Origin: Pseudomonas putida
GTDB taxonomy: Bacteria; Pseudomonadota; Gammaproteobacteria; Pseudomonadales; Pseudomonadaceae
DNA length: 64,000 nt
Reading direction: 5' to 3'
Assembly (NCBI GenBank): GCA_029953615.1
Contig: CP124529.1
Coordinates: 5,544,494 to 5,608,493 of the forward strand
Part shown: piece after piece, positions 10,149 through 59,615 of the stretch
Position numbering within the stretch: the first letter of the stretch is position 1
Layout: every line of letters begins with the position of its first letter
The notes under the pieces: generated by a model
Seen by the model: only the letters and a program-made list of their open reading frames with translations
Database searches by the model: none
What the model was told of the DNA's origin: nothing
Made by a program: the position numbers and the translations under genes

Positions 10149-12891
10149 ATGAGCAACTTGAACGATGTGCGTTTTACCTTCAGCACGCCCGCCGACGAGG
10201 CAATAGCATTTGACGTGGTGTCCTTCGAATTGAAGGAAGGGATCAGCGAACTGTACCGACTGACCCTTGAATTGGTCAGCGAATCGGACGACGCCGACTT
10301 TGCCACCCTCCTCGACCAGCCCGCCGCTTTGACCATCTGGCAACGTGATGAGGCGGTGCGCCATGTGCACGGCTTGATCAGCAGCTTCGAGCAAGGCAAG
10401 ACTGGCCACCGCCGCACCCGCTACCGCGCCGTGATCGAACCGCAACTGGCCCGCGCCGGCCTGCAATCGGACTGGCGGATCTTCCAGCACCGGCCAATCC
10501 CGCAACTGCTGGAGGACCTGTTCCGCGAACGCCAGTGGGGCACGTTGACCCAGTACATGGTCAACCCGCACCAAAGCCGCGAGTTCTGCGTGCAGGCCGG
10601 CGACCTGGACCTGGATTTCTTCTGGCGCCTGTCGGCCGAGGAAGGTTTGATTTCAATCTTCGAGCACAGCGAAGGCAGCCATGGCCTGATGCAGGCAGAC
10701 AGGATCAACCAGTTCGGCAGTCTGGAAGGTGAGCCGGTGCTGTACGTCGCCAACCGTGGCGGCACCGAGCAGCAGCCCTGCCTGCACCACTTTGCCTACC
10801 GCGAGCAAGTGCGCAGCAGCCGCCAGGTCCAGCGCGACTACACCTTCACCCACCCGCGCTACAACCATGAGCACACCATGTTCCCTCGGGAGATGGGCAG
10901 CCAAAGCAGCGATTACGAACGTTACGACTACCCCGGCCGCTACAAGCACGATAACGCTGGCAAGCCATTCACCCAGACCAAGATTGATGCGTTGTTCAGT
11001 GATGCGCGCGTGGCCGAGGTCGAAGGTGACGATGCCCGCTTGCAACCGGGTATCGCCTTTCAGCTGACCGGCCATGCCCGAGAGGACATGAACATCCTCT
11101 GGCGCCCCCTGCGCATCACGCACACGGGCCGCCAGTTCACCGCACTGGAAGAGGACGCGGCTGAGGCCGAGGTCGGTACGTCCTACACGTCGACCGCCAC
11201 CCTGATTCCGGCGCAGGTCGAATGGCATGCTCCCGCCCGCCCCAAACCTGTGATCGAAGGCCCGCAGATGGCCAAGGTGGTCGGCCCGCCGGGTGAGGAA
11301 ATCTACTGTGACGAGCATGGCCGTGTGCGGGTGCAGTTTCCCTGGGATCGCTTCGGCCAGGACGACGACAAAAGCTCGTGCTGGGTGCGGGTCACCCAAG
11401 CCTGGGCCGGTGCGACCTGGGGCCACATGGCCATTCCGCGCATCGGCCAGGAAGTGGTGGTCAGTTTCCTCAACGGTGATCCCGACCAGCCGATGATCAC
11501 TGGGCGCAGCTATCACACCGTCAACCGCCCACCATACCGACTCCCCGAATTCAAGGCGGTGAGCCCGATTCGCAGCAAAGAGCACCACGGCAAGCGCCAT
11601 AACGAATTGCGGCTGGACGACACCACCGGGCAGATCAGCGCCGCCTTGATGAGTGATCACGATCATTCGGCATTAAACCTCGGCTACCTGACCCACCCCC
11701 GCCACTTTGGCGGCAAGCCTCGTGGACAGGGGTTCGAGCTACGCACCGATACCCACGGTGTGGTGCGTGCTGGTGGTGGGCTGCTGCTGACGACCGAAGC
11801 TCGCGCTCGCGCCAGTGAACACCATACGGACCTCGCCGAAACCGCCGAGCGCCTTAAAACTGCTCAGGAGTATCACACCACCTTTGCCAATGAAGCCCGC
11901 GACCACCTCGCCCAGGAAGGCGGCGATCAGGATGAAGTGGGCGACGCCCTCAAGGCACAACACAGCGCTATTCGCGGCAGCGGCGGCAACCCTGAAAGCA
12001 ACCGTTTTCCTGAGCTGGCCGACCCGCACCTGGTGCTTGCCAGCCCAACCGGAATCGCCACCAGCACACCTGAATCAACCCATATTGCCAGCGGCGAACA
12101 CCTGGGTTTGAGCACGGGTGGCCACACTAGCATGGCCATCGGCAAACGCTTGCTGATCAGTGCTAGCCGTGGCGTGCGGCAGTTCGTGCAAAGCATGGGG
12201 TGGCGTTTGGTGGCCGCTTCCGGCGACATCGATCTGCGCGCCCTGAAAGACAACATCAATTTGCTGGCCAAGCTCAAGGTCAGCGTCACCGCCGAACGCA
12301 TCACCCTCAGTGCCAAGGAGGAACTGGTGATCCAGGCCGGAGGCAGCAGCACAACCTACAACGCGGGCGGCATCGTGCATGCCACGGCGGGCCAGTACAC
12401 CGCGCACGCGACTGACTTCATCTACAAAGGCTCGAAGAGCGAAGCAGCAGCGTTTCCCGACGAGATCAAGGCGGGCCAGGGCAATCTGGAATCTGTTTCA
12501 GCACTATGCGAGCCGCCATGCCTACGAGATGGCGGACTACCGCGTCGAAGATGCATTGGGTCGGGTGTTTACAGGAAAGCTGGATAGCGAGGGATTCGCT
12601 AGCGTGGCCGGGCTCGCTGCTGGACCGGCCAAGGTGACATTGGGCAAGGATCCGACTGACACATGGTCGCCAGCGAGCGAGATCAAAGAGCCTAGCGATG
12701 CTGCAGTTAGTTCGAAAACCGCTGAGCTCGCAGCCAGGGCGGTCGAGCAGGTTGCAACTGCAGTCCTCTCGAATGCTGCATCCCCCAATTCCTCGATAGC
12801 CAAGGGGCTGCTCAACCAACCCCTTGTGAACCGCGCCTCCGAAGAACTGGAGACCTTAGTCACCGCCGCCGCGGGGAAAACACGACTATGA
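10149..12891 (+). pseudogene. vgrG: VgrG/TssI spike protein, C-terminal part frameshifted
   Basis: VgrG forms the trimeric T6SS spike and carries effectors. The open frame from 10149 gives an 812-residue protein ending at 12587. It has the gp27-like base (residues 1 to about 340), the gp5-type OB fold (around GRVRVQFPWDRFGQDDD and the IGQEVVVSFLNGDPDQP stretch), and the DUF2345 needle. At about 12492 an extra T switches the frame. Removing it restores NLELFQHYASRHAYEM, a transthyretin-like tail and a stop at 12889-12891, for a total of 913 residues. That stop overlaps the ATG of the rhs gene (ATGA), which supports the longer form as the original. As written the product loses about 133 residues, probably the Rhs/effector docking part. 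Confidence 0.87.
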
Positions 12892-15800
12892 CCGCACCTT
12901 CCACACGTCCACACGAGACGGCCGTCGCACCTATCAGAGAGATCCCCCCGGAAGACATTGAAGAAAGTGCGAACAATGTTGACCTCTGGCTCAGGCAACT
13001 CAGCGAAAACAGGCTGACCCTCGCCGATCTGAAGATGGCGGCTGAGTTCATTCCCATCGCTAACAACATCATGGCGGCTGTAGACGCCGTCAGCGATTTG
13101 ATCACGCTCGCAGAGAACGAAAACAGAACGCTGCTCGACTGGGTCAGCCTCGGCATAAACCTGATAGGCGTAATTCCAGTCCCGCCCGTGATGGCCTTTG
13201 CAAGAAAGAGCCTAAGACCTGCCCTGCACCTAGCCAAGCAGCAGGTCAAAGCAAATCCGAAAGCAGCAATCGGCGAAACCATAGTAACCGTTCTGACCGG
13301 ACACTTGAACGCGACAATCCTCGGCGAGCTGGAGAACTTCGTCGCCTTCGCAGAAGCCGAACTGTCGCAAATGCTTGCGAAATGCGGCGCGTCTGCGAAG
13401 ACATTGATGCTTACGATCGCCAAGGGTATCGACGACTTCCTGAAAGGACAGCTGAAGCATGCGCCGGCAACCAAAAGCGACGATCTATCGTGGCTGGAGG
13501 AGATTGCAAAACATGCGACGCTTCCGCTGGAAGTCGCTACCGTTGCGGCGCTCAATAGCTTATCGAGACTGATCCCCCCTTACATAAAAGCAATTGGCTT
13601 CAAATACGTTGCATTACTTCGACACCTTGCTACCGAGGTGGAGCGAAATCTTAAGGACCTTGGCAACGCTCAAGTAACCAACAGCATTGGCCACATCCTA
13701 TTAATGCTGCGAAACGCCGCTGGGCGCAAACGTGCTCAGCTCAATACCAGTGTTCCTCCAACCGGCATAAGGCAAGCCAGAGGGGTTAGTCGTCAGAACG
13801 AACTGGGCGCGATCAACAGGCAGCCTGGCCCGAGGCAGGATGCAAAGCCCGAGAAGAATGGCGCCTGCGCTAGTACATGCCACAACATCACTTTCGCGCG
13901 CGGCTCTGAACAGTTAATTCACACTGATTTTACGCTTCCTGGACCCTTTCCAGTTTCGTGGGCGCGCAACTACCGATCCAGTCAGTCCGCCCTTGATGGT
14001 GGCCCATTGGGTGCACGATGGATATCTCCGTTCACCGTCTACTTTGAAGTCACCGATGAAGCACTGTGCTACCAGGCTGCCGATGGTCGCTCCCACAGCT
14101 ACCCACTGCCCAAAGTCGGAAAATTCCACCATGACCCCGTTGAAGAAGTCGTACTCGTTCGGACGGGCGAGCGAACGCTCTCACTCGCCAGAGGACATGC
14201 GCTCGAAGAGCAGTATGAGCGGGTCGGCGACGTTTTTAGACTCATCCGCATGCGCCAGCGCGGCGGAGCCAGCATTGCCCTTCACTACGAGCATTCGCAT
14301 GAAGGAACCCAGGTCCTCTCTGATCTGCTGACCTATCAGAACGACCAGCCCCATCAACACATCCAAACTCTAATTGATCGTACTGGACGCATCGAGAGCT
14401 TGTGGTTGATGAAGGCGGGAGAGCCGGTTCGGCAGCTGGCAGCCTATCGCTACAGCGACGAAGGAGACCTGACAACTGCTCTTGATGAGCATGGCAGGCA
14501 GTGGAACTACGAATATCGGCACCACTTGATCACTCGGTACACCGACAGGACTGGCCGGGCGATGAACCTGGAATGGCTGGGTGAAGGACCGGATGCCAAA
14601 GCCGTCCACGAATGGGCAGACGATGGCAGCTATGAGGTGCGCCTGGAGTGGGACAAGCACATCCGCCTTACCTACGTCACGGACGCCCTGGGCAACGAAA
14701 CCAAGCACTATTACAACATTCAGGGCTACACCTATCGCATCGTCCACCCCGACGGCAACGAGGAGTGGCTGTTCCGCGACGATGCCATGAACGTGGTCCA
14801 ACATGTGCACCGCGACGGCAGCGTTGACCACTATGCCTACGATGAGCGCAGCAACCTATTGCAGCACACGCGACCAGACGGCACCTCGGTCCACCACGCC
14901 TACGATGACCTCGACCAACGCTTTAAAACACGGGATGCCGAGGGGGGATTATGGCGGTATGACTACGACCAACGCGGCAACATCATCGAAGCCATAGACC
15001 CACTGGAGAACAAGACCCAGTACACCTACAACAGCGACAACCTGCCCATTGCCATCATCGATGCCAACGGGGGCGAGAAAAAGCTCACGTACAACCATGA
15101 CGGTCAACTGGCTAGCTACACCGACTGCTCTGGCAAAACGACTCAGTGGAAGTACGACGCGCTCGGCCAACTCACCAAGCTTATCAACGCTGCTGGTGAG
15201 GTAACCGAGTATCACTACGCCGCAGGGCACCTCACCAGTGTCGTCCATCCGGACCAGACCCGAGATCGCTTCGAATACGATGCTGAAGGCCGGCTGCTCA
15301 GCTTCACCGACGCCCTGCATCGCCGTACGCGCTGGGACTATAACGAAGCCGGGTTGATTCATCAGCGCCACAACCCCAACGACGCCACCCTCACCTACCA
15401 CTGGGACAAGCTCGGCCAGCTGGTGCGCCTGCGCAACGAGAACAACAGCGAAGCCACCTTCGCCTACGACCCCGTAGGCCGTTTGCTCAAGGAGACAGGC
15501 TTCGACAAGCAAGCCACCGATTACCTATACGACAACGGCAGTGACCTCCCCACGCGCCGCCTCGATGGCGACCGCATCACGCACTTCGACTACGACCCCA
15601 TGGGCCGCTTGGTCGAAAGCAACGCTGGGCAGCGTGGCGGCAAAGAGTGGGAAACCGAAACCTTCGCTTACGACGGGAACGGTAGACTGCTGCTCGCCGA
15701 GAACAAGGACTGCAAACTGCAGTGGTTCTACGATCTTGCGGGCAACAATACCCGTGAGCACCAGCACTTCAAGTACATGCAGCAGCCCAAGGTCGCCGTA

Positions 15801-17351: not shown

Positions 17352-17608
17352 TCAAGCTTGACGAAATTAAAGCCTGGGGCACGGAACCCGGTAGTGACAA
17401 ACTCTTAAAGCTGGACGAAATATCCATACTTGCATCTGCAGCGATGATCCGTACCCTTGGTGTATTCCTAATCAATGCAGCCTACGAGATGGAGACTAAC
17501 GACGTCGAGCACGTCCACCTTCAGGATTTTTCGTCAAATTTCTCATATGACCACCACGTCGATATAGTTTTGACCGATAAATTCAAGGTTAACTCAGACC
17601 CCATCTAG
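17348..17608 (+). CDS. Candidate immunity protein for the Rhs toxin
   Basis: An 86-residue protein whose ATG overlaps the rhs stop codon (ATGA), the standard place for the cognate immunity gene. It has no signal peptide and no membrane segment, so it would act in the cytoplasm and the toxin target is probably cytoplasmic. It is acidic, with a hydrophobic core helix (LGVFLINAAYEME) and an HVHLQDFSSNF strand-like segment. The pattern reminded me of small Imm families with an H-x-H-L-Q-D segment, but I cannot name one securely. The function is inferred from position. Confidence 0.7.
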   Translation: MIKLDEIKAWGTEPGSDKLLKLDEISILASAAMIRTLGVFLINAAYEMETNDVEHVHLQDFSSNFSYDHHVDIVLTDKFKVNSDPI

Positions 17609-17786: not shown

Positions 17787-18051
17787 ATGAAAAAGATCGT
17801 TCGACTCGGCGACTCATCCGACCACGGAGGAACGGTCATTGACGCCATTGCCCACACCAACCTCAACGGTAAACCAATGGCTGGCAAAGGCAACATGGTT
17901 TTCTGCCCTCTATGCAAAGGCGAGTTTCCCATCGTCGAGGGCAGTGACACCTACCGCGTCAACGAGGTGCCCGTCGCGCTGGATGGCATGAATGACCGCA
18001 TGCGGGGCAAGCTTGATTGCCAGCGCCTCACACGGCAGTGTCCATAGCTGA
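17787..18051 (+). pseudogene. PAAR-domain T6SS tip protein, frameshifted near its end
   Basis: PAAR proteins cap the VgrG spike. The ATG at 17787 gives MKKIVRLGDSSDHGGTV, then a GKGNMVFCPLCKGEFPIVEG segment typical of stand-alone Pseudomonas PAAR proteins. At 17988-17995 there is an exact tandem ATGAATGA. As written the frame ends at 18047 with an odd tail. Deleting one ATGA copy restores TACGASLIASASHGSVHS and a stop at 18051 (86 residues), including the conserved second Cys-Gly motif. The 4-base duplication therefore destroys the third part of the PAAR fold. Confidence 0.8.
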
Positions 18052-18187
18052 GCCAACTCGGCAATTGGAGCAGGCGAGCAACAGACATCCCAGCAGTATT
18101 GTCTGTTGCCGCCGCTCCCGGCCTCCGATCACGACCTGATCAGTCTTACTCGTGTGCCGTTGGAAGGTGACCCGACGATGGCTTCAA

Positions 18188-19202: not shown

Positions 19203-22200
19203 CTAGAAATCCCTTTTGTAGAAGATATCCAGTGAGCTGGCCAGCCCGCTGGCCGCCTCGAGATAGACCTTCTTGCTCAGCTTGTAGCGCAATGCAATGG
19301 TGTTCGCGGGCTCGAACACCCCCACCCCGTAGCGCAGGCTCAGTTTCTCGGTGAGGTTGCCACTGGCGACCACGCTGGTGGTATTGCCCGAACCTTCGGT
19401 GTCCAGCTGGAAGTCATCGATGCCCAGGCTCGAGGCCAGGCTACCGGTGATGCCGGCGCTACCTGCCAGGCCCAGGCCCAAGGCTGCCTCGGCGAGCATG
19501 TTGTTGTCCTCGCCGGAGGCGCCCAGAGGCCGCCCCAGTACCAGGTACGACAGCGCCTGCTCCTGGCTCATGGCCGGTTCCGAGAACACTTTGCTGGTGG
19601 GCTGCTCGGCGCTGCCGCTCAGGCGAATACCGGCAATCACGTCGTCGACCTTGCGAATCGCTTCAATGTCCAGGTACGGCTGATCGATCGGGCCTGCGAA
19701 CAGCAGCCGCGCACGGCGGATGGTCAGGCGCTGGCCGTAGGCACGGTAGCGGCCGTCAGCCAGGCTCAGCTCGCCACGGGTGTCGAGGTTGTCGCCGATG
19801 TGCACATGGCCCAGCAGGTTGGCCGTGAGACCAAAGCCGCTGAACGAAAGCTTGTCGCGGCCCACCTCGACATCGATGTCCATGGCCATCGCCATGGGTG
19901 GCTTGCCCTCTTCGGTCTGGTGGCCGACGATCACCGTGTCATCAGAGACCTTGACCGTGGACGGTGGCAGCTCGCGTACAGTGATCGTGCCCTTGGGCAC
20001 CTGCACCTTGCCGGTCACCGCCAGCTTGTCGTCGATCAGGCGCAAGCTCAGGTCGGGGGCAACCTCCAGTGTCGCATAGGGCTCGACCGTGACGGGCAGC
20101 TGCTGGCCTTGCAGGCGCAAGTCCATGCCCAACGCCTGGCCCCAGGTGAGGTTGCCACTCAACTGGCCACGCCCCGCCTCGCCACTGCGCCATCCGCCAT
20201 CGAGCTGTACCTGCTCGCCGGCAATCAAGGCCTGCAATGACAGGTCCTTGAGGCTGACCGGCAGCTCGGCGCCACTGACTTCGCCGCCGCTGAGCATCAG
20301 ATTGCCGTTGACCTGGGGTGCCAGCAAGGTGCCCGACAACCGGCCACTGCCATTGAGCTGTCCGGCGAGGCGCTCGACCATCGGCACGAACGGGCGCGCC
20401 ACCGACAGGTCGAGGCCGGCCAGGCGGAAATCACCCGACAGCGGCTTGTTCTTGCCCAGTGGATCAAGGCGCGTGTTGACGTTCAGCTCGCCCGAGGCGC
20501 TCGCCGCGGAACGCCAGGCGGGTATCGATGCGCCGTGGCGCCAGCGTGCTGTCCAGGCGCAGCGCCTGGTACGGGAAGTCGAGCCAGCGGTCCTTGTCGC
20601 GCACGCGCAGGGTACCGCCACTGGCGTCGACAACGATGTTGCCCTTGGGGCCACTGGCCGGGATGTCCAGATTGATGTCGGCATTGAGCAGGCCCTGCCA
20701 GGCGAAGTCCTTCGGCAGCCACTGGGCCAGGCTGTCCAGCGGGAATTGCTTAAGGTGGTAGCGCAAGCGTGGCTCGGGGGCCAGGCGCTGGTCGTCGCCA
20801 CACAAGCTGGCCTGGCCGGAGCGCCAGCAATGCGCAGCAAAGTCCAGCTGCCCGCTGGCCAGCCGCTGCAGGCGCGCCGGCGCCTGTAACTGCCAGTCCT
20901 GGCCGCCGGCCTGGACCCGCCCGCTGGCCAGGCGCCCACGCCAGTCGCCATTGTTCAGCTGCCCATCAAGGCCGAGGTCGAGCTTGAGTTGCGGGCCATC
21001 CAGCGCCAGGGTCAGCGCTTGCTGGCGAATGTCGCCTTTGCCGTTGGCCTGCAAGGTGCCCAATGCCGTGTCACCCAGGTGAATGCCGCTGGCCTTGAGC
21101 TCGATCACGCCGCGCTGGGCGTTGTCCAGGCGGGCATCCAGGTCCAGCTGCTGCAAGCGGTTTTCCGCCTGGGCCAGCCGTTGGCCCTGCAGGGTCAGCG
21201 TACCTTGCGGAGCCTGCAAGGTGCCGGCGACATCCAGCCGGCCCTTGGCCTGGCCCTGCAACCTTGGCCACAACTGGCCCAGGCGCGGCAGGTCGAGGTC
21301 GACCCGCCCGGCCAGGCGTTGCTGCAGGCTGCCACTGCCATTGATGCGGTTATCCCCCAGCTGGATTGCCAGCGCGCCCAAGGTCCAGCTCTGCCCTGCC
21401 CCTTGGGCCTCCACCTTGAGCATTGCCGGCTGGCCGCGCAAACGGCCTTTCAGGTCAAGCTGGGCATCGAGGCTCAGGGCGTCGCCTTTCATTGTCGCCT
21501 TTGCTGCGCAGCGGCCCCGCCAGGGTGCCCGGCAGCTCGGCCAGCCAATAGGCCGGGTCGAGCGCCGACAACTGCAGGTCGACATCCCATGCCAGGGTGT
21601 CGGCAAAGCGCACGGCGACACTGCCGGCAGCCTTGCCTTGCCCGGCACTCAGCGCCAACTGCGGCAGCTTCACCTGGCTCAGGTCACCTTCGAACGGGCT
21701 GGCCAGGCTGAACGCGCCGGCCGGGCCATCCAGGTCGCCATTGAAGGTGCCCTGGTAGTTGCCATCGCGATAATGCACCTGGGCCATGAAGCGCTTGAGT
21801 GCGACCTCCGGCGGCGTTTCCAGTGGATACAGGCGCAGCCACGGGAAGTCCTGCCAGTCCAATTGGGCGTCGGCAACCAGGCCTTGCTGCCAGTCAGCCG
21901 TGGCTTGCAACCTGACCCGCTGGGTATCGCTGGCGTTCAGGTCCAGGGCATCGAGCCTGGCGCCTTTGCTGTCTACCAGCCCGGACAACAGCAAGGCGAT
22001 CGGCGACTGCTCGGCCGGCAGGCTGGCCGCCCCCGACAGTTGATAGCCCTTGAGCAGATCGCCGCTGGCATCGAGCTTGAGCTGGTTGAACTGCAAAGTG
22101 TCAGGTAACGAGGCAGCCGGCTTGAATGCCTCGGCGCGGATCTGCAAGGTCGCCGGCAAGTGCTCCGCCAACGCCTGCAATTGCCCGCTCAGCGTGGCGT

Positions 22201-26269: not shown

Positions 26270-26391
26270 CCCAGGGCTGCTACGCAGCCCATCGCCGGCA
26301 AGCCAGCTCCCACAGAACTACACATAACTCAGTGAATTAGCCGGGACAATGTGGGAGCTGGCTTGCCGGCGATGGGCCGCAGAGCGGCCCC
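26270..26391. repeat. Inverted REP pair between xthA and prtR
   Basis: Two copies of the REP core CATCGCCGGCAAGCCAGCTC and its complement (near 26290-26315 and 26350-26373) face each other between two convergent genes. The class is the AGCTGGCTTGCCGGCG type, also seen at 34.1 kb and 63.6 kb. Confidence 0.85.
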
Positions 26392-26433: not shown

Positions 26434-27187
26434 TTACAACCCCAACCGCAACGCCTCCCCCACCCCCGCCCCGCGTACATCGTCCGCCGCGCTGCACCAG
26501 AGCAAAGTTGTAGGCCCCATGCGACCAATACCTCGCCTCCAGCTGGCCATCCACGCGATGCCCGTCCGGCATGCGCCGATAGTGATCACCTGGTGAGCGC
26601 AGGAACAGGCTGATGCGCTGGCCCTTGGCATCCTCGAACACCAGCAACGCCGCCGGCCCCTGCTCATTGCTGAGCAGGCGCGCGCCCACCGGTTTGAAGC
26701 CATAACCCGCCAGGTCCGGCAACTGGCCCACGCGGCTGAAATGGCGCCCCAGCCAGTCGCGCAACCGGCCCGGGTCATTGGCCTGGATATCCAGGGCCTG
26801 GCTGCCGGCGAACAAACGGTGCGCCTGGACGGCATCTGCCATCGGCAGGTCGCCACGCGCCAAGGTCGCGTCGCGCACCTGCCAGCCGCCCAGGCCGCCC
26901 ACACCGACCGCCAACAACAACACCGCCGCCGTGGCCCAGCGCCGTTGGCGGCGTTGGCGCAATTGCCGGCGCAACTGCCTCAGGTCCAGCTGCGCAGCCC
27001 CTGGCACATCGCCAAACCCGGCCAGCGCCGTACGCAGGCGGCGAGCGTCGGCACGCCAGCCCTCTACCTTGGCCGCAGCCTGCGGGTTGGCCGCCAGCCA
27101 GGCCTGCACCTCGGCCCGGCGCACAGGCTCCAGGCGTTCGTCGACATAAGCATGCAATTCATCTTCGCTGGGGATCAGGCGGGTCAT
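26434..27187 (-). pseudogene. prtR: PrtR-like anti-sigma factor, frameshifted near the 3' end
   Basis: A membrane anti-sigma factor paired with the adjacent ECF sigma gene. The N-terminal cytoplasmic part (DELHAYVDERLEPVRR) is the sigma-binding region, and a single membrane helix lies at about residues 84-104 (ATAAVLLLAVGVGGLGGW). The periplasmic domain ends in YWSHGAYNFALV. One extra base near 26486 diverts the frame into a Gly-rich tail ending at 26414. Correcting it gives RADDVRGAGVGEAL and a stop at 26434 (250 residues). Only the last ~25 residues are affected. It overlaps the sigma gene by 4 bases. Confidence 0.82.
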
Positions 27188-29498: not shown

Positions 29499-30705
29499 AT
29501 GAATGTCGCAAAGGATCCTGCCACACTCGCACCCACCAGCACCCTGGACTTGCGCCCCCTGCTGCTGGCCAACATGGCGTGTACCATGTCGATGATGGCC
29601 TTCGTCGCCCTGATCGGCCCGATCGCCCGCCAGCTCGGCATGGCCACCTGGCAAGCTGGTGCCGCCGTGACCGTGGCGGGCGTGATCTGGGTACTGCTGG
29701 CGCGGCCCTGGGGGCGCGCCGCAGACCGCCTGGGCCGACGGCGCATCCTGCTGCTGGGCAGCGCCGGCTTCACCCTCGCCTACTGGCTGCTGTGCCTGTT
29801 CGTCGAAGGCGCGCTGCGCTGGCTGCCGGGGGCGACCCTGGCCTTTATCGGCCTCATGGTCGCGCGCGGTTGTATTGGCGCTTTCTATGCTGCTATCCCG
29901 GTAGGTTGCAATGCGCTGATCGCCGATCATGTCGAACCGCAACGACGCGCCCGGGCCATGGCCTCGCTGGGTGCGGCCAATGCCGTTGGCCTGGTTGGTT
30001 GGGCCGGCACTGGCGGCGCTGCTGGCGCGGCATAGCCTGAGCCTGCCGTTCCATATCATGTCGCTGCTGCCGGCCAGTGCCTTCCTGGTCCTTCTGTTCA
30101 CCCTCAAGCCGCAAGCGCTGCCGCACAGCCATGCCCCCAGCCCGGTGCGGCTGAACGACCCGCGCCTGCGCCGGCCCTTGCTGGTCGCGTTCAGCGCCAT
30201 GCTCAGCGTCACGGTATCGCAGATCATTGTCGGTTTCTTTGCCCTCGACCGCCTGCACCTGGGCCCTGCCGAAGCTGCCCAGGCCGCCGGCATCGCCCTG
30301 ACCACGGTAGGTGTGGCGCTGATCATGGCGCAGGTGCTGCTGCGCCAGCTGGAATGGCCGCCGTTGAAGATGATCCGGGTTGGCGCCACGGTTTCGGCCC
30401 TGGGTTTTGCCTGCGGCTCGCTGGCCACCACGGCGCCTTGGCTGTGGGTTTGCTATTTCGTCGCGGCGGCTGGCATGGGCTTTGTCTTCCCGGCGTTTTC
30501 GGCGCTGGCGGCCAATGCCATGCACGCCTCCGAGCAAGGCGCCACGGCCGGCTCCATCGGTGCTGCCCAGGGCATGGGCGCAGTGATCGGGCCGCTGGCC
30601 GGCACCCTGGCCTATGCGCTCGATCCACGCTTGCCATTCCTGGCGGTGGCGGCGCTGTTGCTGCTGGTCGGCTTATGGCCGATGCCGCGCGATCAGCGGC
30701 CCTGA
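29499..30705 (+). pseudogene. MFS transporter, interrupted by a 4-base tandem duplication
   Basis: A 12-helix major facilitator protein of about 400 residues when reconstructed. Motif A between helices 2 and 3 is clear (WGRAADRLGRRRILL). The frame breaks at 29993-30000 where GGTTGGTT sits inside AVGLVG; removing one GGTT gives GAANAVGLVGPALAALLARH and an open frame to 30705. As written the first part stops at 30035, after about five helices. The substrate is unknown. Nothing else in the gene looks decayed. Confidence 0.85.
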
Positions 30706-30786: not shown

Positions 30787-31334
30787 ATGGACACGGGGAC
30801 GCGACTCAAACTGGTGCGTGAACGCAACAACCTCTCCCAACGGGAACTGGCCCGCCGCAGCGGGCTGACCAATTCGACGATCTCGCAGATCGAGCAGAAT
30901 CGCGTCAGCCCTTCGGTCAGCTCCCTGAAAAAACTGCTCGAAGGCATTCCGATGAGCCTGGCGGAGTTCTTCAGTTTCGACGAGCCGGTGCGCGAAGAGA
31001 GCGTTACGTGTTCCGAGGCGGCGAACAGCCAGACCTGGGCCGCAACGGCCTGCGCATGCTGCTGGTTGGCGCCAGCGTGGAAGGCCGGCAGATGCGCATG
31101 CTGCGTGAACTGTATGCACCGGGTGCCGATTCGGGCGAACCGATCGTGCATGCCGAGGGCGAAGAGTGTGGCCTGGTCACCCGCGGCACCGTCGAGTTGT
31201 GGGTCGATGGCCAGGTGAGCGTGCTCAACTCGGGCGACGGGTACTACATCCCCACCACCCTGCCGCACAGCTTCAAGAACATCGGCCCGGACGAGGCCGA
31301 GATCATCAGCGCCAATACCCCGGCGAACTTCTGA
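30787..31334 (+). pseudogene. XRE-cupin transcriptional regulator, interrupted by a 2-base duplication
   Basis: An N-terminal HTH (LKLVRERNNLSQRELARRSG, TNSTISQIEQNRVSPSVSS) is joined to a C-terminal cupin (YAPGADSGEPIVH, ECGLVTRGTVELWVDG, DGYYIPTTLPHSFKN). This layout is typical of PuuR-type regulators of amine or amino-acid catabolism. At 30996-31001 an AGAG duplication shifts the frame; removing AG joins EPVREE to RYVFRGGEQPDLG and gives 181 residues. As written the HTH is separated from its sensor domain. It lies between the MFS gene and a REP pair, and may control the former. Confidence 0.85.
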
Positions 31335-31384
31335 TTGGGTGGTGAAGGGGCTGCCCTTTCCCAGCCCCGACGTACGCGGTCTTT

Positions 31385-32116: not shown

Positions 32117-32849
32117 TTACCAACGTTCCAGCCAGGGGCGCAGGTCCAGCTCGAAGGTCCATGCGTCGCGGGGCTGGGCGTGCAGGAACCAGTAGCTGTC
32201 GGCGATATGGGCCGGGTCAAGGATGCCATCCTGATCTTTGAGGGCGTAGCGCTCGGGGAAATTGTCACGGATAAAAGCAGTGTCGATGGCACCGTCCACC
32301 ACCACGTGGGCGACATGTATGTTGCGCGGCCCCAGCTCGCGCGCCATGCTCTGCGCCAAGGCACGCAGGGCGTGCTTGGCCCCGGCGAATGCCGCAAAGC
32401 CCGCCGAGCCTCGGGTGCCAGCGGTGGCGCCGGTGAACAGGATAGTGCCGCGCTCGCGCTGGACCATGCGCCGGGCCACCGCCTGGGCGGTGAGAAAAGC
32501 CGGCAAAACAGGCCATTTCCCAGATCTTGAAATACTTGCGCGGGGTTTCCTCAAGAACGCTACAGGGCACATTGGCACCAATGTTGAACACAAAGGCTTC
32601 GATCGGGCCGATATCACGCTCGATGGTTTCGACCAGCGCCGCTACCTCCTCCTCCTTGCGCGCATCGGAGCCAAAACCGTGGGCCTGGCCACCAGCAGCG
32701 CGGATATCGTCCAGCAGCGGCTGCAACTTTTCTGCCTGGCGCCGGGTAACACAGGCAATGTAGCCTTCGCGGGCAAAGCGCTTGGCGATCTCGCCGCCAG
32801 TAGCATCCCCCGCACCAATCACGAGCACCACTTTTTGTTGTTCTGCCAT
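32117..32849 (-). pseudogene. Short-chain dehydrogenase/reductase, frameshifted at an A4 run
   Basis: A Rossmann-fold SDR; the glycine motif is the variant VIGAGDATGGEIAKRF near the N-terminus. The frame breaks at the AAAA run 32495-32498. Removing one A joins KIWEMACFAGF to LTAQAVARRM and continues through ILFTGATAGTRGS to the stop at 32117 (243 residues). The reconstructed active-site region has GAKHALRALAQSMARELG instead of the classical YxxxK, so it may be a divergent or non-catalytic SDR. It is divergent from the TetR gene across an operator-like palindrome. Confidence 0.82.
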
Positions 32850-32938: not shown

Positions 32939-33502
32939 ATGCGCTACACCAACGAACACAAGCAGCAAACCCGCGAGCGGCTGCTGGCCAGCAGTGGCGC
33001 GCTGGCCAAACGCGGGGGCTTTTCCAGCACCGGCGTGGCCGGGCTGATGAAGGCGATCGGCCTGACCGGCGGCGCCTTCTACAACCACTTCCCGTCCAAG
33101 GACGACCTGTTCACCGAGGTCGTGCGGCAAGAACTGTGCAACAGCCCGCTGGCGCGGCTGGCCAACCAGGAGGCCAGCCGCGAACGCCTGGGCCGTTGCC
33201 TGCAGCAGTACCTGAGCCTGGCCCACCTGCACAATCCCGAAGGCGGCTGCCCGCTGCCGCCATTGGGGGTGGAGATTGCCCGGGCCCAGGCCCCCGTGCG
33301 CGAGGTGGCCGAGCATTGGCTGGTGGAACTGCACCGGGCCTGGAGCGCGACCCTGGAGGACGACGAGTTGGCCTGGGTGCTGATCAGCCAGTGCGTCGGC
33401 GCCTTGCTGGTCGGGCGCATGCTGGCTACTGAAAGCGTGCAGTCGCAAGTACTGGACGCCAGCCGCCACTTTGTCGAGAAGGCCCTGCATGAAGCGGATT
33501 AG
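32939..33502 (+). CDS. TetR-family transcriptional regulator
   Basis: A 187-residue TetR repressor. The N-terminal HTH is clear: RERLLASSGALAKRGGFSST then LMKAIGLTGGAFYNHFPSKDDLF. The C-terminal ligand domain contains NPEGGCPLPPLGVEIAR, resembling repressors of reductase genes that sense electrophiles. The ligand is unknown. It probably represses the divergent SDR/DsbA-like pair. Its 3' end overlaps the next gene's start. Confidence 0.92.
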   Translation: MRYTNEHKQQTRERLLASSGALAKRGGFSSTGVAGLMKAIGLTGGAFYNHFPSKDDLFTEVVRQELCNSPLARLANQEASRERLGRCLQQYLSLAHLHNPEGGCPLPPLGVEIARAQAPVREVAEHWLVELHRAWSATLEDDELAWVLISQCVGALLVGRMLATESVQSQVLDASRHFVEKALHEAD

Positions 33503-34083
33503 TCTATTGCTGGGGCTGCTGCTGGCCCTGCCTGCGCTCGCCGAACAGGCCTGCCCGCCGGGGCAGTACCAAGTGTGCCTGATGGGGTGTTTCTGTGCGC
33601 CCATCGACCCCGGGCAAGCCGGGCAGATTTTCAAGGACGTGGAAGTGCTGGCTTCTTCCAGCCTGACTTATGCCTTGCAGCAGGCTCGCGACGAAGCCAC
33701 TGCCAGCGGCGTCGAGCCGATCCCGTTGCATATCCGTGCGCAACTCGAACCCTGGTATGACTTTGCCGTGCTCGACGCGGCGCGCTTCCGGGTGGGTGAC
33801 GAACAGCAGATGAGCGCGGCCAATGCGCTGCTGCAGAACCCTGACGTGAACGCCGTCACGCTGATCGACACGATCATCTTCCGCCGCCCCGCCGATGCCG
33901 AGGACAACGTCGCCTTATGGGCGCACGAGCTCAAGCATGTGCAGCAGTATCAGCAGCTGGGTGTGGAAGAGTTCGCCCGGCGCTACACGCGCAACTACGT
34001 ACGACCTGGAAGCGCCGGCCTACAAGATCGAGGCCGAGGTAAGCAAGGCGCTGCGCGAGCGTGGGTCAGGGCAGGCCAGATAG
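33489..34083 (+). pseudogene. Exported DUF4157-like metal-binding protein, frameshifted
   Basis: A signal peptide (MKRISLLLGLLLALPALA) is followed by a short Cys-rich stretch (CPPGQYQVCLMGCFCAP) and a DUF4157-type domain with the HELKHVQQYQQLG motif, the HExxH-like zinc site of peptidase-related proteins. The frame breaks at TACGTACG (33996-34003). Removing TACG (or one G) gives RNYDLEAPAYKIEAEVSKAL and a stop at 34083, about 196 residues. As written the frame runs into the REP element and ends at 34148. It overlaps the tetR end by 14 bases. The role is unknown. Confidence 0.75.
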
Positions 34084-34085
34084 GC

Positions 34086-34196
34086 CTGGGGCTGCTGTGC
34101 AGCCCATCGCCGGCAAGCCAGCTCCCACAGGCACAGCATATGGCTTGAGACCGATGCGGTCGAGGTGGGAGCTGGCTTGCCGGCGACAGGGCCCTG
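34086..34196. repeat. Inverted REP pair
   Basis: Two facing copies of CATCGCCGGCAAGCCAGCTC and its complement (near 34105-34130 and 34164-34190). They separate the DUF4157-like gene from the convergent transporter gene. Confidence 0.85.
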
Positions 34197-37904: not shown

Positions 37905-38226
37905 CTACTTCAGGCGCACCGCCGTGCCGGTAGCAAATACCACGACCATGCCGCCCTGTACCGACGGCATGCTGATCTCGAAATCCACCCCCACTACCGC
38001 AATCGGCTTGCAACTGGCGTGCCCGCGCCTTCAGTTCTTCGGTGGCCTGTTCCCGGGCCTCGCGCAGTGCGCTTTCCAGGGTTTGCGAACGGCCACCGAA
38101 GAAGTCGCGAAAACGTGCAAAGAAATCGCGCACGAAGTTGATGCCCTGCACCGATTCGGAGCTGACCACACCCAGGTATTCGGCAATCGGGCGGCCTTCA
38201 AGCTGGCTGGTGGTGGAAATGATCAT
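37905..38226 (-). pseudogene. YbjQ/DUF74 heavy-metal-binding family protein, frameshifted
   Basis: Starts MIISTTSQLEGRPIAEYLGVVSSE, the diagnostic opening of the YbjQ family (small homopentameric proteins of unknown role, once called heavy-metal binding). Its middle segment GINFVRDFFARFRDFFGGRS is also typical. At 38001-38002 one extra A (T on the coding strand) breaks the frame. Removing it restores AVVGVDFEISMPSVQG and a family-like end with stop at 37905, 106 residues. As written the protein runs on to 37843 out of frame. Confidence 0.85.
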
Positions 38227-43831: not shown

Positions 43832-44184
43832 GCGGACCATGAGCGAAGCCCAGGTGGCAGCGTTCTGCCTTGGCCTGCCGGGTGCGCGGGAGGACTATAA
43901 ATGGGGCGGCATCCGGGTGTTCTCGGTGGCAGGCAACAAGATGTTCGCGGTGCTCGACCTGGCAGGTGCAGGGTTGTCGTTCAAAGTGGCCGACGAATTG
44001 TGTTCTCGGCTATTGCGACCGACCAGGAGTGCGGCCTGCGCCGTATCTGGCGCGGGCGCGATGGATCAGCATGGCATCGCCCTACCCCATGGGGCGTGTT
44101 GAGCTGTGTGATCTGTTGCAACGCTCGCACCAGCTGGTGGTGCGGCGATTGCCGAAGCGGTTGCAGGTGGGGTTGGTGATCTAG
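43824..44184 (+). pseudogene. MmcQ/YjbR-family DNA-binding protein, frameshifted
   Basis: A small YjbR-type CyaY-fold protein. The N-terminal half is AFCLGLPGAREDYKWGG and FSVAGNKMFAVLD; after a frame break at about 43998-44006 the other frame reads GYCDRPGVRPAPYLARARWI and ends RLPKRLQVGLVI at 44184, the expected family C-terminus. One extra base explains it (about 119 residues). As written the frame ends at 44102. The start overlaps the LysR stop region by 8 bases. Confidence 0.82.
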
Positions 44185-44716: not shown

Positions 44717-45540
44717 GCGCCGTCGCCCAGTCAACCCAGCCGAACTGCCAGGTCGCCAGAATCAGCAGGCCAAAGACAATGCGATACCAGGCGAACACCG
44801 CGTAGCTGTGGTTGGCAATGAACTTGAGCAAGCCACGCACGGCGATCATGGCAAAGATGAACGAGGTCACGAAGCCGATGGCAAAAACCGGCAGGTCGGC
44901 GGGCTGGAACAGGTCGCGGTACTTGTAGCCCGAATACACCGCTGCACCGACCATGGTCGGCATCGCCAGGAAAAACGAGAATTCGGTCGCCGCCTTGCGC
45001 GAAAGGCCGAACAGCAGGCCGCCGATAATGGTAGAGCCGGAACGCGAAGTGCCCGGGATCATCGCCAGGCACTGGATGAAGCCGATCTTCAGCGCGTGGC
45101 TCCAGCGCATGTCGTCGACGTGATCCACCTCCACGCGGTGCTCGCGGCGCTCGGCCCAGAGCATGATTACCCCGCCCACCACCAGGGCAGCCGCCACAGT
45201 GACAGGGTTGAAAAGGTACTCGTGAATCAGGTCGGCGAACAACACGCCCAGCACCACGGCCGGCAGGAACGCAAGCAACAGGTTACCGGTGAAACGCCGC
45301 GCCGTGGGCTGGCTGGTCAGGCCGAAGACCACGTCGAAGATCTTGCCGCGAAACTCCCACACCACCGCCAGGATCGCCGCCAGCTGAATGATGATGTTGA
45401 AAGCCATGGCCCGTTCGCCACCAAAACCGATCAGGTCGGCGACGATGATCTGGTGGCCGGTACTGGAGATCGGCAGAAACTCCGTCAGCCCTTCGACCAC
45501 GGCCTAAGATGATTGCCTGGAAGGCAGTCCAAAAATCCAT
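44709..45540 (-). pseudogene. uppP: UppP, undecaprenyl-diphosphatase, frameshifted after the first helix
   Basis: UppP (BacA) recycles the cell-wall lipid carrier and gives bacitracin tolerance. The gene starts at 45540 ([13 protein letters not shown]), and the catalytic segment [18 protein letters not shown] with the Glu-rich motif is in the next frame, so one extra base at 45501-45502 (GGCC instead of GGC on the coding strand) splits it. The second motif [17 protein letters not shown] is intact. Reconstructed length is 276 residues. Without correction translation would have to start internally without the first motif. Confidence 0.88.
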
Positions 45541-47474: not shown

Positions 47475-47480
47475 GACCAA

Positions 47481-47576
47481 GCCCCTGTGGGAGCGGGCAT
47501 GCCCCGCGAAGCAGGCGACGCGCGGTATGGCACCGGCTTCGCCGGTGTTCGCGGGCATGCCCGCTCCCACAACGGG
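47481..47576. repeat. Inverted REP pair with one extra base
   Basis: GAGCGGGCATGCCCCGCGAA and CGCGGGCATGCCCGCTC-type units flank an ACCGGCTTCGCCGGT hairpin. The left unit has CCCC where its mirror and the other REP copies have CCC. Confidence 0.85.
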
Positions 47577-51609: not shown

Positions 51610-51621
51610 TCGCTGTGCTTG

Positions 51622-51647: not shown

Positions 51648-51671
51648 AACAGAACCGGAAGGCATCCGATC

Positions 51672-52352: not shown

Positions 52353-52398
52353 CGACTCTTGCAACGACAAGGAGCACGAGGCTCCGGGGAGCACCCCA

Positions 52399-53151: not shown

Positions 53152-53197
53152 TCTACGCTCAGTCTCATCAAAAGTAGTCGGCAGGGACGGCACTTCC

Positions 53198-54478: not shown

Positions 54479-54491
54479 GACTTGCCCCCGG

Positions 54492-54519
54492 CGGGCCCGT
54501 GCGAACGGGCCCGGCTTTT
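54492..54519 (+). terminator. Rho-independent terminator of the fap operon
   Basis: CGGGCCCGT and ACGGGCCCG arms with loop GCGA, followed by GCTTTTGG, 14 bases after fapF. Confidence 0.88.
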
Positions 54520-54613
54520 GGTTACCAGCCTTGTCCCGCAACGCCGTGCCCGCCCTGGCCTGTTATCATCAAGCACAGTTGCATGACGATTTAATGGCAA
54601 AAGGGATGTTTTT

Positions 54614-56815
54614 GTGAAGAACCTGTCAGACCACCCACGTATCCGGCTTGTCGCCCTGACGGCCCTGGTACTGGTGATCCCACTGGGTACGCGCGCCATA
54701 CTGGGTTGGTCCAACCCGCTCGGTTACCTGTCCGACCTCGCCCTCGGCAGCCTGCTGGTCTTGCTGCTGCACCGTCGGCCGTGGTGGCTGGCGCTGCCCG
54801 TATTGCTGGCCTGGGCGGCCCTCTGGGTGGCTTCGGCCGAACTGGTGAGCGCGGTCGGCCGTTTGCCCACCAGCGCCGACCTGACGTACCTGCTCGACCC
54901 GCAGTTCATGGAAAACTCGACCGGTGGCGGCCTGGCCCATGCCTGGCTACCCTGGACCATGGGCGTCGGCCTGCTGGCCTGGCTGGCCATCGCCTGGCGC
55001 AGCCGTACCCAACGCAGCCAGCCGCTGCCACGCAAGGCCTGGGCCATTCCGCTGCTGCTGTTTGGCGCCCATTGGGGCAGCCAGCAACTGCTACCTTCCG
55101 ACGCCGACCAATGGCGGCAATACAATCTCACCCACCAGTTGCTGTCGGCCGGGGCCGGTAACCTGCAGCGCCAGGTCGAAGGCTGGATGGGCCGGACGAA
55201 AACCTTCACTCCCCTGCCCAGCACCGGCCTGACCCAGTCCGACCTGCATGGCCAGCGCCTGCTCGCCGGGCCAGGCAACGCCCGCAACCTGCTGGTCATC
55301 ACCGTTGAAGGCATCCCCGGGGCCTACCTGCGGCCCAACCGCCAGGCCCTGCACAGCCGCTTCGACGAAGAGCTGATGCCCAGGCTCAGCCAGTGGGCCG
55401 AGCGCGGCATGAACACCCCGGACTACGTGTTGCATACCCACCAGACCATCCGTGGCCTGTATGCCATGTTGTGCGGTGACTACGACAAGCTGGCCAACGG
55501 CACGCCCAAGGGCATGGAGCTGCTGACCCAGAACGAGCGCAACCAGGCCTGCCTGCCGGCGCAGTTGCGCCAGGCCGGCTTCACCACCCACTACCTGCAG
55601 GGCGCCGGCCTGCGTTTCATGGCCAAGGACCGCATCATGCCGCACATCGGCTTCGACGCGGTGCACGGTCAGGAGTGGTTCCGCAACAAGAACTACCTGG
55701 ACTTCCCCTGGGGCAAGGATGACCGGGCCTTCTTCGAAGGCGCGCTGGACTACGTCGGCCAACTGCAGAAGCAGGACAAACCCTGGATGCTGACGCTGCT
55801 CACCGTGGGCACTCACCAACCGTACTCGGCACCGGCCGAATACCTGGAGCGCTACGACACGCCGAAACAGGCGGCAGTCGCCTACCTGGACGACGCGCTC
55901 GGGGCATTCCTCGACAACCTCGAACGCCAGGGCGTACTCAAGGACACGCTGGTGGTGGTGACCTCCGACGAATCCCACGGCATCGACGGGGTGCGCCTGG
56001 CCTCGTCCTGGGGCTTCAACCTCACCCTGGCGCCGGAGCAGGCGCAGTTGCCAAAGATCAAGCACGGCACCTACGGCCATATCGACCTGGCCACCTCCCT
56101 GCTTGATTACTTCGCCCTGCCCATCCCGATAGCGCTCGGGGGCCGTTCGCTGTACCGCGACTACGACAGCGGTCGCGAGATGATCTCCTACACCAACGGC
56201 ATGCTGCGCTATCACGACGGCCGGGGAGTGTTCACCGAATGCGACTTCCAGCAGCGCTGCCGGCGTTACGCCAGCGAGGGCTTCATCGCCGACCAGGCAC
56301 GCTACCTGGGCCCCGGTGACAGCCTGCTCGGCCAGCAGATCGGCGCCCTCGCCGGGGTGCTTGACCAGTCCCTGCTGCAAACACCGCTGAACCTGCGTTA
56401 CCAGTTCGGCGGCCCATCGCCGATCCGCTTGCGCAAGCGCATTCACGATGACTGGGCCGACAACCTGATCGGCGCCCAGTACCTGGAGATGCCCGAGGGC
56501 TCGCATACCCGCGTGCGGGTCAAGGTACGCTCTCTGGACCCTCGGCGCGCAGCCTACATCCAGCTCAAGGCCAAGCAGTCGGAGCAGGACGTACCGCTGG
56601 GCCTGCCTGATGAAGTGAAAGTCACCGCCGACGAGCCCCTCGAGATGGAGTTCAGCTTCGACAACCCGACCGCGCGAAAGGCGTTTTCCTTCCATTTGCT
56701 GGGCTATGGCGGTGGCAAGGTGGAAATCAGCGATTTCAGCGTGATCACCGCGCTGCCTGGGGAAGATGAGGCGGAGGATGAACTGCCAGAGGGGCATATC
56801 GCCCATTCGGGCTGA
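54614..56815 (+). CDS. LtaS/OpgB-like membrane sulfatase-fold phosphotransferase
   Basis: A 733-residue membrane enzyme. About four N-terminal helices (residues 10-170) are followed by an alkaline-phosphatase-type domain (about 225-560): VITVEGIPGAYLRP (metal-site Glu), the nucleophile Thr in HTHQTIRGLYAMLCG, and VVTSDESHGID (metal ligands). A C-terminal beta domain is unusual for LtaS. It probably transfers phosphoglycerol or a similar group to periplasmic glucans or lipids. Start codon GTG at 54614; the ATG at 54606 stops at once. Confidence 0.86.
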   Translation: MKNLSDHPRIRLVALTALVLVIPLGTRAILGWSNPLGYLSDLALGSLLVLLLHRRPWWLALPVLLAWAALWVASAELVSAVGRLPTSADLTYLLDPQFMENSTGGGLAHAWLPWTMGVGLLAWLAIAWRSRTQRSQPLPRKAWAIPLLLFGAHWGSQQLLPSDADQWRQYNLTHQLLSAGAGNLQRQVEGWMGRTKTFTPLPSTGLTQSDLHGQRLLAGPGNARNLLVITVEGIPGAYLRPNRQALHSRFDEELMPRLSQWAERGMNTPDYVLHTHQTIRGLYAMLCGDYDKLANGTPKGMELLTQNERNQACLPAQLRQAGFTTHYLQGAGLRFMAKDRIMPHIGFDAVHGQEWFRNKNYLDFPWGKDDRAFFEGALDYVGQLQKQDKPWMLTLLTVGTHQPYSAPAEYLERYDTPKQAAVAYLDDALGAFLDNLERQGVLKDTLVVVTSDESHGIDGVRLASSWGFNLTLAPEQAQLPKIKHGTYGHIDLATSLLDYFALPIPIALGGRSLYRDYDSGREMISYTNGMLRYHDGRGVFTECDFQQRCRRYASEGFIADQARYLGPGDSLLGQQIGALAGVLDQSLLQTPLNLRYQFGGPSPIRLRKRIHDDWADNLIGAQYLEMPEGSHTRVRVKVRSLDPRRAAYIQLKAKQSEQDVPLGLPDEVKVTADEPLEMEFSFDNPTARKAFSFHLLGYGGGKVEISDFSVITALPGEDEAEDELPEGHIAHSG

Positions 56816-56909
56816 GCGCAGTACCGCTCATCGCCCGGTCACCGCGGCCTGTCGATTCAACCCGCCCGTGCTCGACTAGGGTGTGAATCCCCAATGTGGA
56901 GACAGCACC

Positions 56910-57639
56910 ATGAGCACGAGCGAAAGCAGGCACCCGGTGGTTTCCCGCAGCCAGTGGCTGGCGGCCCGCCGGCAGCTGTGGCTGCACGAAAAGGCCTTTA
57001 CCACACCACCGCGACGCGCTGGCCGCAGCCCGTCGCGCCCTGCCCTGGGTCAAGGTCGAGCACGGCTACCGCTTCTACGGGCCAGACGGCAAAAGGGACC
57101 TGGCCGAGCTGTTCGCCGGCCGCAGCCAGTTGCTGGTCTACCATTTCATGTTTGCCGAGGGCTGGAGCGAAGGCTGCCCCGGTTGCTCGTTCCTGGCCGA
57201 CCACTTCGACGGCGCCAACCTGCACCTGGCACATCACGACGTGTCGCTGGTGGCGGTGTCGCGGGCGCCCTATGCCGAGTTCCAGGCCTTCCGCCAGCGC
57301 ATGGGCTGGCAGTTCCCCTGGTATTCGTCACATGGCAGCGGGTTCAATGAGGACTTTGGCGTCAGCGTTGGCAGCGAGGGCCAGCGGCAGTACAACTATG
57401 AGCCCTATGAGGGTAATGAAAGCGAGCTTCCCGGGCTGAGTGCGTTCTACCGTGATCCGGATGGCAGCGTTTACCACACCTATTCCACCTATGCCCGTGG
57501 CCTGGATATCCTGGTCAACACCTACAACTTCCTCGACATTGCGCCACTGGGGCGCAACGAGGGTGGGACCATGGACTGGGTGCGGCACCATGACCGTTAT
57601 GAAGGGCAGCCGAACAAGCCTGACTGCTGCCACAAATAA
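56910..57639 (+). pseudogene. DUF899 thioredoxin-like protein, frameshifted near the 5' end
   Basis: Reconstructed as 242 residues. It begins MSTSESRHPVVSRSQWLAAR and, after removal of an extra A at about 57003, continues HHRDALAAARRALPW. It then carries the DUF899 core: LVYHFMFAEGWSEGCPGCSF, then LVAVSRAPYAEFQAFRQRMG, then FNEDFGVSV. DUF899 proteins look like inactive or reduced peroxiredoxin relatives (CPxC in EGCPGCSF). As written only an internal start at 57130 gives the C-terminal 169 residues. Confidence 0.85.
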
Positions 57640-57658
57640 CGTGAGGCAACACCTATCC

Positions 57659-57748
57659 CTTGTGGGAGCGGGCATGCCCGCGAACACCGGCAAAGCCGGT
57701 GCCAGGCACTGCGTCGCCTGTTTCGCGGGCGCGCCCGCTCCCACTGGG
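57659..57748. repeat. Inverted REP pair downstream of the DUF899 gene
   Basis: GTGGGAGCGGGCATGCCCGC and GCGGGCGCGCCCGCTCCCAC units face each other around an ACCGGCAAAGCCGGT hairpin, between convergent genes. Confidence 0.88.
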
Positions 57749-57759
57749 GACGCGATATG

Positions 57760-58383
57760 TCAGCCACGCACACCCAGCATCCCGCGCTCGACGATGAAGT
57801 CGATCACCGCCTGCAGCCCCTCGCCCTTCTTCAGGTTGCTGAAGGTCCATGGCCGCTGTGGGCGCATGCGCTGGGTATCGCGTTCCATCACTTCCAGCGA
57901 AGCGCCCACATAGGGCGCCAGGTCGGTCTTGTTGATCACCAGGAAATCCGACTTGGTTATCCCTGGCCCACCCTTGCGCGGGATCTTCTCGCCTTCGGCC
58001 ACGTCGATCACGTAGATGGTCAGGTCGGCCAGCTCCGGGCTGAACGTGGCACTCAGGTTATCGCCGCCGCTTTCGACGAAGATCACCTCGAGGTTGCCAA
58101 ACTTGCGCGCCAGCGCTTCGACCGCCGCCAGGTTCATCGAGGCGTCTTCACGTATCGCCGTGTGCGGACAACCGCCGGTTTCCACGCCGACGATGCGCTC
58201 CGGCTCCAGGGCCCCGGCTTCGGTAAGGATGCGCTGGTCTTCCTTGGTATAGATGTCGTTGGTGACCACCGCGATCTGGTAGTGATCACGCATGGCCTTG
58301 CACAAGGCTTCGAGCAGCGCCGTCTTGCCGGAGCCGACCGGGCCGCCGACACCGACGCGCAGGGGTTGTTGATAGCTTTGCAT
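57760..58383 (-). CDS. ureG: UreG, urease accessory GTPase
   Basis: A 207-residue GTPase that delivers nickel to urease with UreE, UreF and UreD. The P-loop [15 protein letters not shown], the metal-site C-P-H of [19 protein letters not shown] and the switch segment [18 protein letters not shown] are present. The Met at 58383 ([14 protein letters not shown]) is the start. It is the last gene of the urease operon. Confidence 0.97.
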
Positions 58384-58394
58384 GCAGGCAGTCC

Positions 58395-59069
58395 TCAGGA
58401 ACGGAACAAACGGGTGTATTGGGTTTCGTGACACGATGAGGCAATGGCCAGCAACGGCAAGCCGCCGCCTAGCTGGTCATCGCCCAAAGCCAGTGCCTGG
58501 TCGAAGGCGGCGGGCAGCCCTGCCCCCAGGTCACGCAGCAACGTCTGGGCAGCCTGCTGGCCGAACGGCACCAGCTTGACCCCGGCCATTACTGCACCCT
58601 CCAGCCAGGCAAAACCATGGCCAAGGGCCAACTGGCGCAGTGGGATCGCCCAGTGCGCAGCCAGCCAGGCCATACCGCCGAGCTGGGTGAGTTCGAGGCT
58701 GGCCCGCCAGGCCGGCGCCTGGCCCAGTTGCCAGCCGTCCAGAAGCCGTGCCAGCGCCGCACCGCGCTGCTGTTCTTCCAGACGCAACTCGGCGGTTTCG
58801 CGGTTGGCCAGCAGAAAACGGCTCCAATGGCCGAAGGCCTCGGCGTCCTCGGCCTGGCAGGCGTGGTACAGGCGCGCCAGCACCGGCCAGTCGAGGCAGG
58901 CCAGGGTGTCGTCGATCTGCTCCCGCTGCCAGGCAGCGAAACCATCCGCGCCCCGTACCCAGCCGGTCTCGACCGCCCATTCCAGGCCTTGCGAGTAGGT
59001 GAAGCCCCCCACCGGCAAGCCAGGGCTGGCCAGTTGCAGCAGGCGCAGCAGCGCCAGGTCGCTGTCCAT
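58395..59069 (-). CDS. ureF: UreF, urease accessory protein
   Basis: A 224-residue UreF. The family N-terminus [29 protein letters not shown] is present and the C-terminus ends [14 protein letters not shown], the region that recruits UreG. UreF acts as GTPase checkpoint in the UreD-UreF-UreG nickel-insertion complex. The ATG at 59069 overlaps the ureJ stop. Confidence 0.95.
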
Positions 59070-59615
59070 CAACCGGCCAGTACCAGCGCGGCGCCGGCCA
59101 GCAGGCCACCGCCAAAGGCCTTCTGCAGGCCGCTATGCCTGCGCAGCAAACAACCGACCGCGAAGCCGGCCGCCAGCAACAAGCCGCTGACCGCGACGAA
59201 GCCGGCGCTGAACTGCCAGAACGCGCTGGGTGTGGCTTCCACGCCATGGGCCCAGCCATGGAACAGGGCGAACACCGGCATGGCCATGGCCAGCAGCAGC
59301 TGGCGGCTGGGCAGCAGCACGGCCCCGGCAGCTACCAGCAGCGACACGGCAATCAGGGTTTCCATGCCCAGCACATCGCCAAACAGGTGGCCGCACACCG
59401 CGCCACCGAACATTGCCGCCAGGGTTGCCAGGGGTAGCGTCAGGCTGCGCCGGGTCAACGCGGCGAGCACACCGGTACCCAGCAGCATCAGCAGGTGGTC
59501 AAGCGCCAGTCAGCGGGTGCAGCAGGCCGTCCTGCAGCGGGTTGGCGTCGTGCCCGGGGTGGGCGAAGGCTGGCAGCGCCAGCATCAGCAGAAACAGGGC
59601 GAAAGTCTTTTTCAT
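59069..59615 (-). pseudogene. ureJ: UreJ/HupE-type nickel-associated membrane protein, frameshifted
   Basis: A membrane protein of the HupE/UreJ family, proposed to import nickel. The N-terminus MKKTFALFLLMLALPAFA plus HPGHDANPLQDGLLHPLTG is in one frame (ending at a TGA after TGA-like GA), and LDHLLMLLGTGVLAALTRRS in the next. One extra base near 59504 explains the break and restores the signature HPLTGLDHLLMLLGTG; reconstructed length is 181 residues. Several hydrophobic helices follow. As written the signal peptide is lost. Confidence 0.86.

Follow-up and report, generated by a model that had tools for sequence, protein, structure and literature searches.

Insertions on a 500-base grid break genes in a Pseudomonas putida genome record and very probably arose in consensus polishing

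The frame-breaking lesions in the stretch of the Pseudomonas putida chromosome analysed here (the window, 64,000 nucleotides) lie on a grid of 500 bases, and they are very probably errors of consensus polishing, in which 500-base pieces were joined end to end and spare bases were left at the joins. The lesions are real as sequence and most likely not real as biology. The record, one contig with a 5.76-Mb chromosome and a completeness of 99.95%, serves as the species representative in the genome collection. The window matches the stored genome record exactly as a substring, and a display artefact of the preliminary description, which had reported fourteen frame breaks, is therefore rejected.

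A search supplied six relatives for alignment with the window (G072, G057, G103, G081, G045, and G077), whose identity is 76–94% over the main matched segments and 88–96% over one tamB piece. A single-block guess at synteny in G057 aligned only ~44 kb, and the relatives were hence located by 20-kb queries. The order of genes in this chromosome (G000) is interrupted in several places relative to that of G057, a close relative, and the matches between the two fall on either strand. Coverage by the six relatives extends from 19.2 to 64 kb of the window and includes 12 of the 14 sites. At each of the 12, this genome has an insertion compared with every covering relative (five relatives at two sites and six at the other ten, Table 1), eleven being of one base and one, at 30996, of two bases. 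In a codon model, the coding state switches or terminates at all 12. The site in vgrG shows a one-base insertion relative to G003 (81% identity), the sole relative covering it, and a plasmid search with vgrG gave no match. This brings to 13 of 14 the sites compared with relatives; the PAAR site lies outside all aligned relatives. The claim that the frames are broken almost exclusively by insertions holds at all 12 covered sites, and at vgrG against one relative; the extra bases are absent from the same genes in the relatives. The caution that any statement about pseudogenes here depends on whether the lesions are artefacts is upheld. The repair proposed for each gene, the removal of one, two, or four bases, stands for one and two bases, but none of the tested sites showed a four-base insertion. 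The REP copy near 47500, which had been credited with an extra base, aligns in three relatives with several conflicting gaps each and does not align in the other three. Between 17574 and 18900, a frame with a PAAR motif precedes a separate frame with RHS repeats, which opens at 18052, and the stretch 33471–34148 encodes a protein piece carrying an eCIS core domain (PF13699).

Table 1. Sites in the window, with window coordinates and the evidence at each site.
Feature	Interval	Strand	Site	Evidence
vgrG (T6SS tip protein gene), grid site, frame break	12487..12499	+	12493	insertion relative to G003 only; VgrG family match
PAAR site near grid position, putative break	17980..18000	+	17988	PAAR motif match as far as about 17990; following Rhs frame open only from 18052
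tamB, grid site	20490..20498	-	20494	6/6 relatives; TamB pieces on either side
tamB, second grid site	21490..21498	-	21494	6/6 relatives; TamB pieces on either side
anti-sigma-factor-like gene (preliminary name prtR), grid site	26490..26499	-	26495	5/5 relatives; anti-sigma match below curated cut-off; no Pfam hit
MFS transporter gene, grid site	29990..30000	+	29995	6/6 relatives; MFS_1 in downstream piece
HTH-cupin regulator gene, grid site	30992..31002	+	30996	6/6 relatives, 2-base insertion; HTH_3 before, Cupin_2 after
short-chain dehydrogenase gene, grid site	32491..32503	-	32495	6/6 relatives; two adh_short parts in different frames
eCIS-core (DUF4157-like) gene, grid site	33996..34004	+	34000	6/6 relatives; PF13699
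ybjQ-like gene, grid site	37997..38005	-	38001	5/5 relatives; PF01906
YjbR/mmcQ-like gene, grid site	43998..44006	+	44002	6/6 relatives; PF04237
uppP (BacA family), grid site near 5' end	45498..45509	-	45502	6/6 relatives; PF02673
REP-like noncoding stretch near grid position	47480..47520			conflicting gaps relative to three relatives
putative DUF899 gene (preliminary name), grid site	56999..57007	+	57003	6/6 relatives; no Pfam hit, two reading-frame pieces
hupE/ureJ gene, grid site	59500..59509	-	59504	6/6 relatives; PF04955

The coordinates given in the preliminary description all lie within ~14 bases of multiples of 500, a 500-base grid that went unremarked there. Successive sites in the window are separated by 1000, 5001, 3500, 1001, ~1500, ~1502, 4001, 6001, ~1500, ~11500, and 2501 bases, where an approximate distance marks an inserted base whose placement is ambiguous. 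Give or take a base or two, each spacing equals a multiple of 500 plus the bases inserted since the last site, and each insertion displaces the grid beyond it by roughly as many bases as it adds. By a rough, after-the-fact reckoning, the chance that 11 further sites would each fall within 3 bases of a 500-base grid is of the order of (7/500)^11.

Outside the window, 232,088 bases drawn from 5.36–5.76 Mb and 0–0.4 Mb of the chromosome were aligned with G057. This comparison yielded 296 gaps, 128 of which are no longer than 4 bases and have flanks of 80% identity or more, and the clean gaps of 1–2 bases comprise 79 insertions and 43 deletions. At a period of 500, 35 of the 79 insertions share a single 25-base phase bin (the maximum in 2000 random placements was 15), and the corresponding figure for deletions is 6 of 43 (null mean 6.2). 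Among all integer periods from 300 to 1000, it is 500 that gives the fullest bin of one-twentieth of a period. Only the insertions are periodic. Successive grid insertions outside the window are spaced by 8501, 5001, 18001, 4001 bases and the like. A wider phase band holds 43 insertions by position, or 44 if equivalent placements are allowed; about five of them miss the local grid by 13–22 bases, and some other spacings deviate by up to ~7. One interval of 137 kb lost 10 bases, indicating that other length changes occur between joins. The grid continues through the first base of the record to within 3 bases, which suggests that the grid already existed when the circle was, probably, rotated to its present start. 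The regions at 40–60 kb and 300–320 kb contain five and four grid insertions, respectively, on which G057, G072, and G103 agree (3/3 each, with one at 2/2); the same regions also contain three off-grid insertions and four off-grid deletions.

The grid is also recovered when frame breaks are called de novo, by a codon-usage Viterbi model applied to three 400-kb blocks (1.2 of 5.76 Mb). After overlap-like junctions were dropped, 14 of 75, 18 of 73, and 12 of 66 breaks remain in the three blocks, and these concentrate at period 500 (R 0.96, 0.71, and 0.83; p ~2e-6, 1e-4, and 2e-4, respectively). The grid is present in 3/3 sampled blocks, and its occurrence is not confined to one locus. With a previous codon model, for which a single block served as training set, 19 of 87 breaks remained, with R 0.85. 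When gene overlaps are kept the period-500 signal is weak (R 0.28, 0.35, and 0.15; p 0.003, 1e-4, and 0.24), a period of 558 is slightly better than 500 in the first block, and in the window by itself the period does not reach significance (R 0.16, n = 16). The overlap filter removes true grid sites too, leaving 3 breaks in the window compared with the 12 seen by alignment, and the frame-break counts are therefore undercounts. As a control, one 400-kb block of G057 gave 3 filtered breaks (R 0.07) and a second gave 2, numbers that carry little power; with overlaps kept, the control block gave R 0.26 and p 0.03. The 31 possible insertions of G057's own in one block show no significant period of 500 (Rayleigh p 0.80), with 8 of the 31 in one 50-base phase bin.

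The sequence around the joins gives an indication of what kind of change took place. No excess of substitutions relative to G057 was found at 135 insertion-free grid positions (65/1080 vs 559/8370), and mismatches beside the insertions are about as frequent as those further off (23/352 vs 163/2700), indicating that the change is a spare base at the join and not general damage. The 500-base unit is very probably the window of a polisher. The draft chromosome would have been cut into consecutive 500-base windows, a read consensus built for each, and the windows then joined end to end. A spare base, sometimes two, would have been left at roughly one join in twelve, breaking any gene that lies across the join; such a base may originate from read ends that add an extra node to the graph at the edge of the window. 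The record would later have been rotated to its present start with no subsequent repair.

The program that best fits this course of events is most likely racon, the leading candidate, whose default window is 500 bases. Racon divides an assembly, together with the reads mapped to it, into windows that do not overlap, and derives a partial-order consensus for each window (PMC11232133). The fixed 500-base unit, the changes at its edges, the insertions of 1–2 bases, and the presence in every sampled 400-kb block all resemble a racon-type window polishing error, although here the program is suggested by the pattern, and a literature search, in the partial texts that it returned, found no published description of an insertion artefact at 500-base window joins with this exact signature. 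The closest parallel is provided by assemblies of Drechmeria, for which racon was used with -w 500 and followed by Medaka; in the available sections of that report, the errors that polishing added were more often insertions than deletions, many had only tenuous support from reads, and the authors saw no obvious explanatory pattern; a 500-base spacing is not described in those sections (PMC7500977).

The same class of artefact could instead stem from another program with a 500-base unit, such as PacBio Quiver/Arrow/gcpp or an assembler step derived from racon, a possible though less likely source, and the grid itself yields only the length of the window. Quiver, Arrow, and gcpp use 500-base reference windows, and Arrow-type tools give their windows overlapping margins. 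VeChat has 500-base windows too, though for read correction (PMC9636371). The plain end-to-end joining of POA windows is well suited to leaving spare bases at the edges, but nothing in the present data discriminates between the programs.

A fault of file handling or stitching, in which a 500-base block had nothing to do with read consensus, would also be expected to give an exact, insertion-only grid, but it is improbable. Only ~8–9% of the joins in the aligned parts are affected (43 grid-band insertions, some five of which miss the local grid, for ~464 grid positions) and the density is regional, which fits a consensus that depends on reads. Per 20-kb bin, the density ranges from 0 in ~32 boundaries to 8 in ~39, with the densest bin lying in the window, and three of the sixteen 20-kb alignment bins contain no grid-band insertions. 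The segment G000:C1:5564017-5604016 has 8 in ~39 and 6 in ~40 boundaries, and 5444017-5464016 has 0 in ~32. The regional density of grid-band insertions perhaps tracks read depth. Extrapolated to 5.76 Mb, the whole chromosome would hold about a thousand such insertions, a figure that is an estimate only, the alignable segments being a non-random sample. The sampled parts of G057 and of a further relative, the indel-rich G080, both from the same collection, are without the grid, which argues against a stitching fault and makes a fault of the stored collection unlikely as well.

Ordinary homopolymer indel error of long reads, which likewise leaves many spurious frameshifts in a finished-looking genome, is a very improbable cause. 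Frame-breaking indels are common in long-read assemblies, and in G080 (a single contig of 86% completeness, perhaps a long-read assembly that was never polished) the overlap filter left 35 frame breaks over the 100 kb of G080:C1:1300001-1400000. However, these 35 breaks show no period of 500 (R 0.06, p 0.88), indicating that an error-rich assembly alone does not yield the grid. The sites in the present record are, in contrast, strictly periodic and without homopolymer preference: 16 of the 38 one-base grid-band insertions extend a homopolymer, where 43% would be expected for a random base, compared with 23 of 29 one-base insertions off the band. The grid-band insertions are located at window joins, not in difficult sequence. 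Of the insertion-biased sequencing that had been suggested as a cause, the insertion bias is retained, whereas the cause is more specific, namely a 500-base grid that shows no homopolymer preference.

The window also contains small indels that probably represent real divergence. Clusters with a gap in every covering relative (two or more) number 29 in the window and comprise the 12 grid sites, six other clusters of a single kind, and 11 mixed clusters with several gap kinds or sizes, which were left out of the analysis. The six off-grid clusters, an insertion at 31351 and deletions at 26391, 37112, 39476, 44243, and 60146 (2 to 6 relatives each), all lie inside noncoding sequence or at its edge. 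The broken genes of the record and the existence of such own-specific off-grid indels might speak for genuine decay of genes in the strain or for a mutator history, but either is scarcely credible. The clean off-grid indels keep to noncoding sequence or its edges, as expected under purifying selection, whereas the 12 grid sites fall in genes; moreover, insertions are periodic, deletions are not, and substitutions are not in excess at grid positions. We know of no biological process that would place mutations at multiples of 500 bases along hundreds of kilobases of sequence. The period, the indifference to homopolymers, and the absence of periodic deletions or excess substitutions accordingly lead us to reject a mutator history, gene decay, and homopolymer error. 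The preliminary description had left a choice between insertion-biased assembly error and a mutator history; the artefact is upheld, but the mutator history does not fit the 500-base grid.

For users of this record, pseudogene calls that rest on grid sites should be discounted, and the record should be checked against the grid first. Gene loss, pseudogene counts, comparisons of gene content, and protein records derived from it would be wrong at the grid insertions. The period-500 test needs no reads and could be used to screen other genomes. Insertions left at window joins by 500-base polishers may conceivably be a common but unrecognised reason for false pseudogenes among publicly available finished genomes of bacteria, detectable from sequence alone by a period-500 test of frame breaks, although we regard this wider proposal as tentative. 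As for the organism itself, the genes broken in the record are probably intact in the living bacterium.
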